From NCBI GenBank assembly GCA_017483605.1, contig JAFUWG010000055.1:1-56476 (forward strand): a stretch of 56,476 bases of DNA, read 5' to 3'. Made by a program: the position numbers and the translations under genes. Positions 3,721 to 44,718 of this stretch are shown in pieces. Under the pieces are notes generated by a model. That model saw nothing but the letters and a program-made list of their open reading frames with translations. It was not told the DNA's origin and searched no databases. The stretch's first letter is position 1; every line of letters begins with the position of its first letter. This DNA comes from Bacteroidaceae bacterium. Its GTDB lineage: Bacteria > Bacteroidota > Bacteroidia > Bacteroidales > Bacteroidaceae.

Positions 3721-3795
3721 GGCCCATTCGTCTATCGGTTAGGACGAGAGATTTTCATTCTCTAAAGAGCAGTTCGACTCTGCTATGGGCTACCA
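3721..3795 (+). tRNA. tRNA-Glu (anticodon TTC)
   Basis: 75 nt including an encoded CCA at 3793-3795. The acceptor arms GGCCCAT (3721-3727) and ATGGGCT (3785-3791) pair with one G-U at the first position. The anticodon stem AGAGA/TCTCT (3747-3751 and 3759-3763) encloses the loop TTTTCAT, with anticodon TTC at 3754-3756. The T arm contains GTTCGACTC. It reads GAA/GAG codons. Confidence 0.95.
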
Positions 3796-36813: not shown

Positions 36814-36897
36814 GTTTCATTGCCTCCCATCGTCGTTCCCCCGACACAGGGGCGTGCATGCCCCCGAATAGGACAAAATGACACACTCGTTACCTCT

Positions 36898-36968
36898 AAA
36901 GTGGTGTGAGTCACACCGCCGGGGTGGTCTGAGTCACACCACTTCGGCGGTGTGACTCAGACCACTTT
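36898..36968. repeat. 71-bp palindromic array 1 (three 15-bp cores, 23-bp period)
   Basis: Cores start at 36903, 36926 and 36949 and read GGTGTGAGTCACACC, GGTCTGAGTCACACC and GGTGTGACTCAGACC. They are separated by 8-bp spacers (GCCGGGGT and ACTTCGGC) and bounded by AAAGT and ACTTT. The architecture matches base for base in length the array at 44037-44107, with 58 of 71 positions identical. A GGGGC/GCCCC hairpin lies upstream at 36849-36864. I do not recognise this element. Confidence 0.9.
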
Positions 36969-37154
36969 GGGGGCTTCCTGCGTGCCGTTTTTGTCATGAC
37001 GAAATTGACATGAAAACGAATAGCGTTTCGCCATTGTAGTCGGTGTGTGCTTGGGGGTGCATTTCTGCGAAGAAACCACAAATGCCAATTTGTTTTCAGG
37101 AATGACTGCTTGCGGCTCATTCGCAAAGGAGTTAGAGCCCCTTTTCAAAAAAAA
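36969..37154. other. Non-coding stretch between array 1 and the etfB promoter
   Basis: 186 bp with no accepted gene. A minus-strand frame runs through it and into the array, with a basic tail (RYSFSCQFRHDKNGTQ); it has no credible start and enters the etfB leader. It may be part of a larger repeat together with the array. Confidence 0.4.
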
Positions 37155-41045: not shown

Positions 41046-41155
41046 GCAATAGAGCAACTAACTGGAAAAGAAAGAAAACTATTGAAAGAATAACTGAAAA
41101 AAAGAGAAACAATGGAAAAACTAACAGGAAAAGAAGAAGAGGTGATGGAGAAAAT
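41046..41155 (+). repeat. Decayed 63-bp tandem duplication of the blaI 5' end
   Basis: Positions 41046-41090 align without gaps to 41109-41153 with 30 of 45 identities. The second copy carries the blaI start (MEKLTGKEEE); the first reads IEQLTGKERKLLKE and stops at TAA 41091-41093, with ATA in place of ATG. Confidence 0.5.
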
Positions 41156-41471
41156 TTGGGAGATTGGTCCCTGTGCTCCTAAAGACGTTGTGGCAAAGTA
41201 TGAAGACCCGAAGCCGCATGTCAACACCATCGCGACCATGTTTCAGTCATTGGAACGGAAAGGCTACCTCACGCATGAGCCCAAAGGACGCGGGTACATC
41301 TATTCCGCCATCATTCCGCAAGAGCATTACGGACGAGGGAAGTTCTCAAGTTTTGTCAATCGGTATTTCGGCAATTCGTACATGAATGTGGTCTCAGCAC
41401 TGGTGCAAGATCAGAAAATCAGCAAAGAAGAACTGATGGAGTTTCTTGAAGAACTCAAGAACAGGAAGTAA
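41112..41471 (+). CDS. BlaI/MecI/CopY-family transcriptional repressor
   Basis: 119 residues. The N-terminal winged helix begins LTGKEEEVMEKIWEIGPCAP, the standard BlaI opening (LTxxEwevMxxlW). It continues PHVNTIATMFQSLERKGYLT, the recognition helix region, then EPKGRGYIYSAI, the wing. The C-terminal 35 residues form the dimerisation helices. BlaI repressors are cleaved after a membrane-bound M56 peptidase senses a signal; the adjacent gene 34 bp downstream encodes such a peptidase. The original staphylococcal systems control beta-lactamase, but many Bacteroidetes pairs have no such gene nearby and none is present here. It probably represses its own operon. Confidence 0.94.
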   Translation: MEKLTGKEEEVMEKIWEIGPCAPKDVVAKYEDPKPHVNTIATMFQSLERKGYLTHEPKGRGYIYSAIIPQEHYGRGKFSSFVNRYFGNSYMNVVSALVQDQKISKEELMEFLEELKNRK

Positions 41472-41505: not shown

Positions 41506-43839
41506 ATGGCGGCATTCGTCATCTATATCCTCAAATGGGCTATCAGCCTCACGCTGTTGTATTCGCTCTACGGGCTTTTTCTGCGGAAAGAGACCTTCCA
41601 CCACTTCAACCGCATGGTGCTGATTGGCATTCTGCTCACCAGCATGGTGCTGCCTTTCTGCACCATCCACACAAAGGAGGAAACCATCGTGTCGAAAGGG
41701 ATGAGTGGAATTGAAGAAAGCATCTCCAACGAAATTGTCATCAGATACCAACCTGCAGAGGAAATAGATTTCAGTCATCAATACACACGAATCGAAGAAA
41801 ATCCCAAGGCAAACACTCCGACGATGAGTCTTGTCCAATGGCTTGTCCTTCTCGGGCTGTTAGGAACTGCCTATTTCTGGGGGAGTTACCTCATTTCGAT
41901 TGTGAAACTATGCTTCGTGATGAAGAACAGCCGTCCGATAGATGGAAACGGAAAACTCCCACAAGGCATACGTCTCTTGGCCAATCCCACCATCCACTCC
42001 CCTTTCAGTTGGTTTCGCACGATTGTGATTCGCAGCGAAGACACACCCCAACCCACAGACATCATCCTGACCCACGAACTTGCCCACGTACAACACCATC
42101 ACTCGTGGGACAACCTGCTGTGCGACATCACGGTCAACACCCTCTGGTGGCTTCCCTTCGCATGGATGCTGAGACGCGACCTGCGCGATGTGCACGAATA
42201 CCAAGCCGACCAAGCCGTGATGGAAGCCGGTTTCGATGTGGAAGCCTATCAAATGCTGCTGATTGACAAATCCACAGGAGAAAGAAATGAAGAAATCGTG
42301 AACAATTTTGAGCAGAACCCATTAAAAAGACGATTCATGATGATGTTTAGGGACAAATCCAACAAGTATGCAGGGCTGAAAGTCCTCTACATCCTGCCTC
42401 TTGCCGCCATCGCACTGGCAGCCTTTGCCAAGCCCGACATGATGGAAGCGGTGGAGAATGAAGTGACCACAGAGATGGAGCCCTTCTCATCTGCCTTCAG
42501 CGGCAAGAAAAACTCTTCCGACCATGAAGACGACACACCAATCCAAGAAGATGAAGAAAAATGGAATATTGACCCGCGAGGCATCTACAAAATGACCAAA
42601 ATGACAGGGCGGGATGGCATAGAGATTGAGGCTCCGAACGACCAGTACAAGATTTGCAGAGACGATGTGACCATCACCTTCAGGGTGGCTACCAACAATG
42701 CCAATCCCAAGAAATACGCCTTTTATTTCTGCATCAACGATGCCATCATCTACAACTATACAGGCAAAGTGCCCCAAGGAGAGGACATGCATGGCACTCA
42801 GATTTACGACAGCAACGGAAAGGAGTTCACCATGAGGTGGCGGAGTCAGTACAAAGACCACCCACTTTTCTCCGAGAACAACTGGGTGGTGGAAAAATAT
42901 GAGCGAGACACATTCTCCAAGCACGCCCAAGAGATTCTTGAACTGCTCAAGAGCGGCGATTTCTCCAACAGCAGGAATCCTTTTGAGGGCAGGTGGATTC
43001 TGTGGAAACAAACCGACAGCGAGGAAGAATGCACTCAGACAGCAAAGAAAGGAGCAGGAAAAGAATCTTTTTCCCCCGACGAATTTAGAGTCATGATGAT
43101 ACAAGGCAACAAGGAACTATCCATGAGCATGGTGAAGGTGTCAAACCCGACCAAATTCATTTTCCTCGGAGGCGTCAGTCCCTGCTCCCACCAAGGAGAC
43201 AAGCAACTCAAACTCGATGACCTCACCTACACAATCCATTGGCAAGGCAAAAACCATTTCTACCACAAGGGAGCGAACGGAAAATTCTGGCTATGGGTTC
43301 GTGACAGTTATTCGCCCAACTACTACGATTACCTCATCGACCTTCTCCGGGTCAGCAGCCGAGAAGCCCTTTCCGTTCCCACCAACCTGTCGAAAGCGAC
43401 AACGGAAGAGATTGAATACCCCGCCTCCGAAAGCGACAGCATCTACATTGGTCCCAATGTCAGCATCGCGGAGTTTCCCGGAGGGGATGGAGAACTCCTG
43501 AATTACATGAGAACGCATGTCCGTTATCCCGATGCCACCTACTGGCAGTATGGTATGGAAGGCAGAGTGATGATTAGTTTTGTGGTGGAGAAAGGCGGCA
43601 GTTTGCAAAACTTCACGGTGGCTCGCAACGGCATCAAGGCCAACACAACCGCTGCCGAACAGAATTTGTCGGAAACGGAATTTGAAAACATCGTCAACAC
43701 AGGGAAACACGCCTTCGAGGAGGCGGTGATACAGGCCCTGCAATCCATGCCTGACTGGAGACCTGCCGTGCACGAAACAGATGGAAAAATGGAGTACGTG
43801 CACATGAAATACACCATCCCCGTCACCTTCAGGCTTTAA
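41506..43839 (+). CDS. M56 (BlaR1-like) metallopeptidase sensor with TonB C-terminal domain
   Basis: 777 residues. The N-terminal membrane domain has helices near 5-23, 33-52, 107-125 and 290-308. The zinc motif HELAH with HVQHHHSWDN follows near residue 190 in the cytoplasmic loop. The periplasmic part holds two related domains of about 120 residues (355-480 and 488-610), each with an R-W..FxR/FxV layout and ending in H/W-rich strands; they look lipocalin-like. The C-terminal about 140 residues match a TonB C-terminal domain (GMEGRVMISFVVEKGGSLQN, ALQSMPDWRPA, YTIPVTFRL). It senses an unknown envelope signal and is presumed to trigger cleavage of the BlaI-like repressor. The function of the TonB part is unclear. 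Confidence 0.9.
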   Translation: MAAFVIYILKWAISLTLLYSLYGLFLRKETFHHFNRMVLIGILLTSMVLPFCTIHTKEETIVSKGMSGIEESISNEIVIRYQPAEEIDFSHQYTRIEENPKANTPTMSLVQWLVLLGLLGTAYFWGSYLISIVKLCFVMKNSRPIDGNGKLPQGIRLLANPTIHSPFSWFRTIVIRSEDTPQPTDIILTHELAHVQHHHSWDNLLCDITVNTLWWLPFAWMLRRDLRDVHEYQADQAVMEAGFDVEAYQMLLIDKSTGERNEEIVNNFEQNPLKRRFMMMFRDKSNKYAGLKVLYILPLAAIALAAFAKPDMMEAVENEVTTEMEPFSSAFSGKKNSSDHEDDTPIQEDEEKWNIDPRGIYKMTKMTGRDGIEIEAPNDQYKICRDDVTITFRVATNNANPKKYAFYFCINDAIIYNYTGKVPQGEDMHGTQIYDSNGKEFTMRWRSQYKDHPLFSENNWVVEKYERDTFSKHAQEILELLKSGDFSNSRNPFEGRWILWKQTDSEEECTQTAKKGAGKESFSPDEFRVMMIQGNKELSMSMVKVSNPTKFIFLGGVSPCSHQGDKQLKLDDLTYTIHWQGKNHFYHKGANGKFWLWVRDSYSPNYYDYLIDLLRVSSREALSVPTNLSKATTEEIEYPASESDSIYIGPNVSIAEFPGGDGELLNYMRTHVRYPDATYWQYGMEGRVMISFVVEKGGSLQNFTVARNGIKANTTAAEQNLSETEFENIVNTGKHAFEEAVIQALQSMPDWRPAVHETDGKMEYVHMKYTIPVTFRL

Positions 43840-43997: not shown

Positions 43998-44029
43998 TTT
44001 GCAAATATCCCCAAGAATGCTTATCTTTG
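43998..44029 (+). promoter_or_regulatory. Promoter of the HU-like gene, directly before array 2
   Basis: TTTG at 43998-44001 and TATCTTTG at 44022-44029 are separated by exactly 20 bp. The start codon is at 44317, so the leader is about 280 nt and begins within or just before array 2. Confidence 0.8.
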
Positions 44030-44036
44030 TACCCTG

Positions 44037-44107
44037 AAAGTGGTCTGAGTCAGACCGCCTCGGTGGTGTGACTCAGACCACCGAGGCGGTGTGAGTCACA
44101 CCACTTG
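44037..44107. repeat. 71-bp palindromic array 2 (three 15-bp cores, 23-bp period)
   Basis: Cores start at 44042, 44065 and 44088 and read GGTCTGAGTCAGACC, GGTGTGACTCAGACC and GGTGTGAGTCACACC. The two 8-bp spacers, GCCTCGGT and ACCGAGGC, are exact reverse complements, so spacer-core-spacer can form an 11-bp stem. Flanks are AAAGT and ACTTG. It starts 8 bp after the -7 box of the HU promoter. Confidence 0.9.
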
Positions 44108-44316: not shown

Positions 44317-44718
44317 ATGTTAGTTGTAAGAAAAGCAAGGAAGAAAATCGTGCGTCCAGACGGACAGCATGATGCATGGATTTATCAGTCGCCTGCACTG
44401 CCCATCATCACCTTCAAGGAGTTGGTCAAGGAGTGTGCGGAATCATGCGGCGAGAATCCCAGTAAAACAATGGGCGTGGTGACTGCACTCATGGACCGCG
44501 TCTCTCACTACCTGAAGATTGGCCGCACGGTGCAGATTGACGGCATCGGCACGCTGAAACCGGTCATCAACTCAGCATCGGCAGAAACGTCGGAGGCTTT
44601 GGGAGAGCCTGCGGACAGCATCAAGGGCGTGAAGGTTCGGTTCTATCCGCATCAGCCTCTGCAACAGGCGATTGCGGAGAACGGGTACGAGTATCAGCAG
44701 GAGATGGATGATGAGTGA
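44317..44718 (+). CDS. HU-like DNA-binding protein
   Basis: 133 residues. Residues 30-100 match the HU fold: ITFKELVKECAESCGENPSK, then VVTALMDRVSHYLKIGRTVQ and IDGIGTLKPVINS, as in the HU-related family of Bacteroidetes (TIGR01201-type). The N-terminal 25 residues are a basic extension (KARKKIVRPDGQHDAWIYQS) and the tail is acidic and short (QQEMDDE). It has no PRNP-type DNA arm visible in the usual place, so its DNA binding may differ from HU. It is monocistronic and preceded by the palindromic array. Function is unknown beyond a nucleoid-type DNA-binding role. Confidence 0.85.
   Translation: MLVVRKARKKIVRPDGQHDAWIYQSPALPIITFKELVKECAESCGENPSKTMGVVTALMDRVSHYLKIGRTVQIDGIGTLKPVINSASAETSEALGEPADSIKGVKVRFYPHQPLQQAIAENGYEYQQEMDDE

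Follow-up and report, generated by a model that had tools for sequence, protein, structure and literature searches.

Triple-palindrome arrays in a Bacteroidales genus and their link to genes of HU-HIG proteins

Arrays and genes of the analysed window

The stretch of DNA analysed here (the window) is 56,476 nucleotides long and comes from assembly G000, which comprises 3.06 Mb in 56 contigs and is 81.5% complete. It contains two arrays, each with three 15-bp palindromic cores of the word GGTSTGASTCASACC, hereafter F1. The first-pass annotation had placed the cores of array 1 and described a twin of the same design as array 2; pattern scan located all six cores and confirmed the 23-bp period and the 71-bp length of both arrays (Table 1). 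Its statement that cores vary only at positions 4, 8 and 12, and only between G and C, is correct for the six window cores and fails for the wider family, in which position 4 is A or T in some cores of genome G007 and other words vary elsewhere. No further core is present in the window even with 2 mismatches (100 shuffles gave a mean of 0.40 and a maximum of 2). The left-flank motif of the longer element around array 1 occurs once in the window.

Table 1. Arrays, cores and associated features of the window
Feature	Position	Strand	Evidence
Array 1, three F1 cores, 23-bp period	36898..36968	.	R1, 74.0 bits (array in R1 training set)
Array 1 core 1, GGTGTGAGTCACACC	36903..36917	.	pattern scan
Array 1 core 2, GGTCTGAGTCACACC	36926..36940	.	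pattern scan
Array 1 core 3, GGTGTGACTCAGACC	36949..36963	.	pattern scan
Extended element that contains array 1 (left flank ATAGGACAAAATGACACACTCG; right flank as far as GACGAAATTGACAT)	~36868..37011	+	flank listings
Array 2, three F1 cores, 23-bp period; probable operator of the HU-HIG gene	44037..44107	.	R1, 66.4 bits (training set)
Array 2 core 1, GGTCTGAGTCAGACC	44042..44056	.	pattern scan
Array 2 core 2, GGTGTGACTCAGACC	44065..44079	.	pattern scan
Array 2 core 3, GGTGTGAGTCACACC	44088..44102	.	pattern scan
Presumed Bacteroidetes-type -7 box TATCTTTG, 20 bp ahead of the first array 2 core	44022..44029	+	TAnnTTTG consensus
HU-HIG gene, 133 aa (P0001); proposed cognate binder of word F1	44317..44718	+	PF18291

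Array 2 is followed by the gene of P0001, which matches PF18291 at 50.7 bits (gathering cut-off 26.2) and was assigned to the HU/IHF fold, with an added N-terminal beta-hairpin. This fold suggests that P0001 would bind DNA as a dimer. Upstream of array 2 lies a BlaI/BlaR1-like pair (41112-41471, Penicillinase_R; 41506-43839, Peptidase_M56 with a TonB_C match), and M56 proteins account for 3 of the 68 scanned left neighbours of G000 arrays. At gathering score, Rfam recognises no family in the window except a tRNA at 3721-3792, and the array sequence has no match in phage records.

Distribution of the F1 family in the source genome

In G000, 275 exact F1 cores were found, against none for the reversed control pattern, together with 174 core-N8-core pairs; three-core matches with at most 3 mismatches number 90 on the forward and 89 on the reverse strand. 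The array groups that were read, from 84 stretches and the window, number 87. Exactly three cores at 23,23 are present in 79, and the others are four pairs, one single core, one array at 24,23 and two four-core arrays; in all, 80 groups have three units. All but four of the 87 lie outside any ORF of at least 90 aa as given by a simple ORF caller, and the flanking ORFs are convergent in 33 cases, codirectional in 35 and divergent in 15, with four groups at a contig edge. The many intergenic copies that the first-pass annotation had set as a test are found in this genome, and also in relatives.

The conserved F1 unit exceeds 71 bp: the array is flanked by arms, CTCG-N3-CCTCAAAAG on the left and CTTTTGAGG-N3-CGAG on the right. 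A longer left flank with AGGACAAAAT is common to 29 of 79 aligned F1 copies, array 1 included. The commonest letters at core positions 4, 8 and 12 are CGC-CGC-GCG (24/79), GCC-CGC-CCG (22/79) and CGC-CGC-CCG (12/79), and in the last class many copies possess an identical 61-bp array and differing outer flanks. Copying from a common source, also proposed in the first-pass annotation, is true as well: recent spread is evident from subfamilies in which the 61-bp arrays are identical and longer flanks are shared.

No recurrent function was identified among the neighbours of G000 arrays: on either side the top Pfam families match only three proteins, in a scan that covered 68 of 83 left and 76 of 87 right ORFs and left out short or repeat-derived ones. 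A six-member group of neighbouring "ORFs" was discarded, as the three members that were scanned have no Pfam match and the sequence looks like a non-coding repeat. This repeat, a few hundred bp long with 77-82% identity, is found near several F1 arrays of G000 and adjoins an F6 array in G064 (L080 2261-2536, L089 1194-1649, L118 2434-2787 and L164 13927-14297).

Core words and distribution amongst relatives

The triple-palindrome layout is a class wider than the F1 word: in relatives, at least nine further core words occur in arrays of this geometry. A site of G064 (L159) that is orthologous to L102 in G000, with orthologous flanking genes and aligned flanks 93% and 84% identical, carries a triple array of the word GGTSAGASTCTSACC at 24 bp. 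A word-free scan, which looks for three 15-bp palindromes at a fixed period and gave 0 on a mononucleotide-shuffled control, identified 12 arrays in 348 kb of G064. Among their words are F2 (GACNTCGWCGANGTC), F4 (GTACCC[CTC/GAG]GGGTAC), F5 (GSACTG[CTC/GAG]CAGTSC), F6 (GACGTG[CCC/GGG]CACGTC) and F7 (GACCAC[GTC/GAC]GTGGTC). Scan rows that are not palindromic or do not have the layout were dropped (the overlapping L157 15844/15867, L186 and L199). The same scan of 384 kb of G000 around F1 arrays gave no other word; F7 arrays are present elsewhere in that genome (L211, L272 and L273).

A covariance model (R1) was built from 17 arrays, all with a 23-bp period. R1 matches at E<=0.01 are found in 28 of 45 genus genomes, with the best 97 candidates per genome considered and both strands counted. 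Across 393 genomes of the order, R1 matches at E<=1e-4 occur in two, G000 itself and, weakly (25 bits), G333, with sensitivity limited by the scoring of the best 11 candidates per genome. One site of G064 (L160 5878-5975) is probably a decayed array, with an R1 score of 15 bits and a single F4-like unit; its counterpart in G000 is the intact F1 array L123.

HU-HIG genes and their upstream arrays

Homologues of P0001 were collected from the 45 genus genomes, and the 47 listed at E<=1e-25, of which 23 are orthologues and 24 paralogues, were all read. A full array lies within 600 bp upstream of the start in 41 of the 47 (40 by script and L301 by R1, at 68.6 bits); for comparison, 63 genes of G000 have an F1 array within 600 bp upstream. 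Amongst the orthologues, 20 of 23 have a full upstream F1 or F3 array, L286 has two units, L294 one and L289 none. These arrays mostly end about 30 nt before the ATG, and 214 nt before it in the window. Of the 24 paralogues, 21 are preceded, at -105 to -451, by a full array with another word, and 20 of these arrays were found by script; the array of L301 was found by R1 and by eye, and that of L314 by script in a shifted register. L299 has two units, the partial arrays of L286, L294 and L299 having been read by eye. Together with L289, L300 and L320 have no array within 600 bp, and these two have F4 arrays at -924 and -1799, respectively. The own arrays of L286, L294, L289 and L299, in which two units, one unit or no more than the arms are left, may be natural variants of a partial operator.

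The own-gene arrays of L304-L319 are confirmed by R1. The model misses the 24-bp F3 arrays of L278, L283, L284, L295 and L296, a result to be read beside its training on 23-bp arrays. In other loci, 1.45 Mb in all, six HU-like ORFs were found; an array lies directly upstream in the window and L060, and none does so in L165 (the same gene as L320), L199 and L200 (two ORFs).

The distribution of genes and arrays amongst genomes coincides. Homologues at E<=1e-25 occur in 21 of the 45 genomes, and these are exactly the 21 with at least 20 R1 matches: the gene-holding genomes have from 22 to at least 97 matches and the other 24 have 0-7 (both strands counted). The limit of 20 was chosen after the table had been seen, and the gap runs from 22 to 7. 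This phyletic match may represent few independent events, since the 45 genomes are relatives of one another and most of the assemblies are incomplete. Arrays without a homologue at this threshold are found in G016 and in G024 (7 hits, F4). In G016, which is 98% complete, one strong F2 array (G016:C7:17149-17237, L213) gives two R1 hits, one for each strand, and may be an orphan site or the trace of a recent loss.

Promoter geometry

The position of arrays relative to promoter-like boxes distinguishes orthologues from paralogues. The box TAnnTTTG, which we take to be a Bacteroidetes-type -7 box, precedes the array by 19-20 or 41-43 bp in 19 of the 20 orthologue loci with a full array. It never does so at the 20 distinct paralogue loci (22 rows, two of them duplicates). 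In 16 of these 20 paralogue loci the box lies instead between array and start, at +63 to +66 in eight, +86 to +88 in two, +110 to +111 in five and +150 in one. Across L274-L319, promoter-to-array offsets step by about 23 bp (-20/-43; +64/+87/+110), and steps so close to one 23-bp unit suggest a helical register between array and promoter.

Phylogenetic analysis and matching of word and spacing

A maximum-likelihood tree was built from 46 distinct proteins, and words were placed on 43 rows, those of L286, L294, L299, L301 and L314 having been assigned by eye. Ten words on 43 genes require 11 changes on the tree, compared with a minimum of 23 and a mean of 26.7 in 300 shuffles. Paralogues alone (21 rows) require 7 changes against a shuffled minimum of 10, and the distribution of F1 and F3 among 22 orthologues requires 3 against a minimum of 4. 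F6 is spread over more than one clade of the protein tree. The residues most closely tied to words are at positions 16 and 13, near the tip of the hairpin, and position 17 separates F1 (M/Q, 14 genes) from F3 (L/A/V/T, 8 genes); these associations may serve as a lead only, since the columns track clades.

The spacing of dispersed arrays also follows the gene. The period of dispersed F1 arrays equals that of the own-gene F1 array (23 or 24 bp) in 13 of 13 genomes, in pair counts that include the own-gene arrays. Where the own F1 array has a 23-bp period (G000, G007, G062, G032 and G023), F1 pairs number 185, 33, 30, 44 and 16 at 23 bp and 4, 2, 1, 3 and 3 at 24 bp. Where it has a 24-bp period (G034, G068, G014, G010, G011, G021, G013 and G036), the numbers are 4, 4, 0, 0, 0, 2, 0 and 0 at 23 bp and 67, 75, 70, 72, 74, 19, 63 and 56 at 24 bp. 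Genomes with an own F3 array at 24 bp (G003, G017 and G025) have no F1 pairs at 23 bp and 0-2 at 24 bp, and G018, with F3 at 23 bp, has none at either. The remaining counts at 23/24 bp are 6/6 in G064 (two such genes), 0/16 in G030 (one unit left), 1/0 in G035 (two units left) and 0/5 in G002 (array lost).

In 14 of the 21 gene-holding genomes, the dispersed array with the highest score has the word belonging to one of the homologues there: F8 in G062 and G032, an own F6 variant in G018, F4b in G034, F7 in G000, F2 in G017, G025, G002, G013 and G036, and F1 in G007, G021, G023 and G030. The seven misses at E<=1e-25 concern F2 in G003, G010, G011, G014, G035 and G064 and F6 in G068; genes of the F2 clade sit just inside this threshold.

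The suggestion of the first-pass annotation that arrays are binding sites gains strong support from this link to HU-HIG genes, and we consider it likely that they are triple operators of sequence-specific, autorepressing HU-HIG paralogues, with dispersed copies. Weighing against this reading are the seven genomes just named, the arrays of G016 and G024, the lack of a nearby array at L289, L300 and L320, the scatter of F6 on the tree and the low sequence specificity usual for HU proteins. A position upstream of HU genes would equally fit any regulator of those genes, and some array-bearing genomes have no found gene for their commonest word, as expected if the arrays bind some other regulator that counts HU-HIG genes among its targets. 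Such a regulator is nevertheless very improbable: the paralogue clades carry their own words, so that roughly every paralogue would have to have a separate regulator, inherited together with it in 21 genomes, and no regulator family recurs among the scanned neighbours of the G000 arrays.

Conserved and empty positions

Several array positions are shared between species. The same word occupies a position with both sides aligned in L071/L062, L101/L061, L141/L066, L057/L063, L202/L203/L206/L207 and L204/L216, and with one side aligned in L142/L051 and in window 44042/L060. Different words occupy a position with both sides aligned in L102/L159 (within 1 bp) and L135/L255 (at unequal distances), and with one aligned side in L110/L164, L072/L261, L132/L158, L109/L210 and L055/L230, as well as in L141 and L066 compared with L204 and L216. 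Matches of L078, L080, L082, L089 and L118 to L164 were false, being caused by the repeat described above, and were dropped.

These positions bear on the idea that arrays are a miniature mobile repeat, MITE- or REPIN-like, whose copies before HU genes are incidental or domesticated. Their copy number is high and lineage-specific, subfamilies share identical 61-bp arrays and in some cases longer flanks, and array 1 is absent near etfB, its orthologous place, in six relatives, an absence of the kind that the first-pass annotation had envisaged. A MITE with 23-nt tandem repeats, BrickBuilt, is also described in Porphyromonas gingivalis (PMC4596501). Word and spacing, on the other hand, follow the HU gene of each genome, and positions are common to several species, at times with another word. 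Outer conservation fades with no sharp end or target duplication seen by eye. In G002, G068 and G032, three near-complete genomes rich in arrays, PF01797 (Y1 transposase, RAYT type) goes without a match, and mobilisation by RAYT was rejected. A purely mobile repeat thus appears unlikely; however, copies likely arise by some transposition-like step, which makes this explanation partly compatible with the operator reading. In a comparison of empty sites aimed at insertion ends, the G064 positions proved to be filled, decayed or too diverged.

Symmetry and pairing of the arrays

Palindromes bordered by AAAA and TTTT could also form hairpins in RNA or single-stranded DNA, acting as bidirectional terminators or structured leaders. 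Amongst gaps of at least 30 bp, in loci picked around arrays, an array is held by 31 of 43 convergent ones, compared with 36 of the 100 codirectional gaps and 15 of the 41 divergent gaps. The centres of cores 1 and 3 are complementary in 62% of F1 arrays and 84% of arrays with other words, and pairing of the outer arms exceeds that in permuted arrays at k=33 and 36 (z about 3 to 3.7) and at k=20, 25 and 30 (about 2). Against this, pairing at positions 4/12 and at arm positions 1-17 does not rise above that expected by chance or in permuted arrays, and k=12 pairs less than permuted (z -2.9). In 103 F1 arrays, the share of cores in which positions 4 and 12 pair is 51% for core 1, 5% for core 2 and 50% for core 3; between cores 1 and 3 it is 49%. 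Complementarity of the outer centres is the opposite orientation of the outer units, and the high covariation of alignment A1 arises by construction, as A1 was chosen for palindromicity.

TTTT does follow the array, yet within a symmetric arm, and most of the variable positions have no excess of pairing. Terminators, moreover, require neither fixed words nor an exact spacing of 23 or 24 bp, and the array sits between the promoter-like box and the start codon at 19 of the 20 orthologue loci. Hairpins of either kind are therefore highly unlikely, and the structural role entertained in the first-pass annotation is not supported, since most of the variable positions pair no more than chance. Conserved positions that are symmetric and variable ones that are unpaired would fit recognition of duplex DNA by dimers.

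Proposed function of arrays and HU-HIG proteins

From the sequence comparisons above, the triple-operator reading may be outlined as follows. A homodimer of the HU-HIG protein would bind each 15-bp palindrome, so that three dimers would sit 23 bp apart, nearly on one face of the helix, between A/T tracts. Occupancy of array 2, which lies between the putative promoter and the start codon, would block transcription of the HU-HIG gene itself, resulting in autorepression. The other copies, about 85 and including array 1, would be dispersed high-affinity sites for the same protein. They would titrate it, so that the level of HU-HIG protein would track the number of sites, and might, as a weaker suggestion, act as local nucleoid anchors or as transcription insulators between genes. 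Several such pairs would exist in parallel within the genus: paralogues would read the words F2 and F4-F9, each having dispersed copies besides the array at its own gene, and a change of protein would go along with a change of word and spacing.

A more tentative extension, which we regard as possible, is a multi-channel addressing code, in which HU paralogues would read private words, autorepress and mark about 10-100 intergenic slots per channel. Words would be read perhaps through the variable N-terminal beta-hairpin; protein, word and spacing would switch together, and some slots would stay in place and be handed between channels.

Should the operator reading hold, these genes would be a clade of HU paralogues, each of which has a 15-bp word to itself, an operator at its own gene and matching arrays throughout the genome. 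They would offer a natural series of proteins and sites (ten words, two spacings) for reading out HU specificity, and a case in which to study how a nucleoid protein changes together with about 100 dispersed sites. A class of intergenic repeats that is unannotated in this Bacteroidales genus would be explained as well.

Comparison with known systems

Searches of open-licence literature turned up no account of the arrays or of sites for HU-HIG proteins. SlmA, Noc and MatP each read a set of tens of dispersed palindromic sites across the chromosome. Unlike the arrays, these sites are single dyads, are read by proteins of other folds and are not known to have parallel words. The REPIN-RAYT and BIME systems consist of intergenic palindromic repeats in about 100 copies; they comprise several families, and each family is linked to a single gene with a copy at its side. 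The arrays resemble them in being intergenic, palindromic, many-copied, multi-family and gene-tied. They differ from REPIN-RAYT in that their partner is a DNA-binding HU protein rather than a Y1 transposase, and in having exactly three units at 23 or 24 bp.

HU proteins generally lack sequence specificity, HU being the textbook unspecific packer of bacterial DNA. According to the available part of one study (PMC3969353), the HU protein PG0121 of P. gingivalis bound most forms of DNA alike, with some preference for a 77-bp inverted repeat over the control, and HU autoregulation is stated there for E. coli. The HU fold and, in the proposed reading, the dimeric state and gene control at an inverted repeat are shared with IHF/HU (DNABII), the inverted repeat of the hupA promoter and PG0121 (PMC3969353). 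Dispersed triple arrays and paralogue-specific words set the proposed system apart from known HU proteins with their little specificity, and neither is described in the available part of that paper (PMC3969353).

BrickBuilt elements, in the accessible part of their description, vary widely in unit number, range from 84 to 991 nt and have IS5-type terminal repeats (PMC4596501); no such terminal inverted repeats were seen by eye in array flanks. In that description, and not letter by letter, BrickBuilt can be compared with the arrays, which share with it the 23-nt period, the intergenic location and the occurrence in Bacteroidales, and differ from it in having three units in 80 of 87 groups and in being linked to HU genes (PMC4596501).
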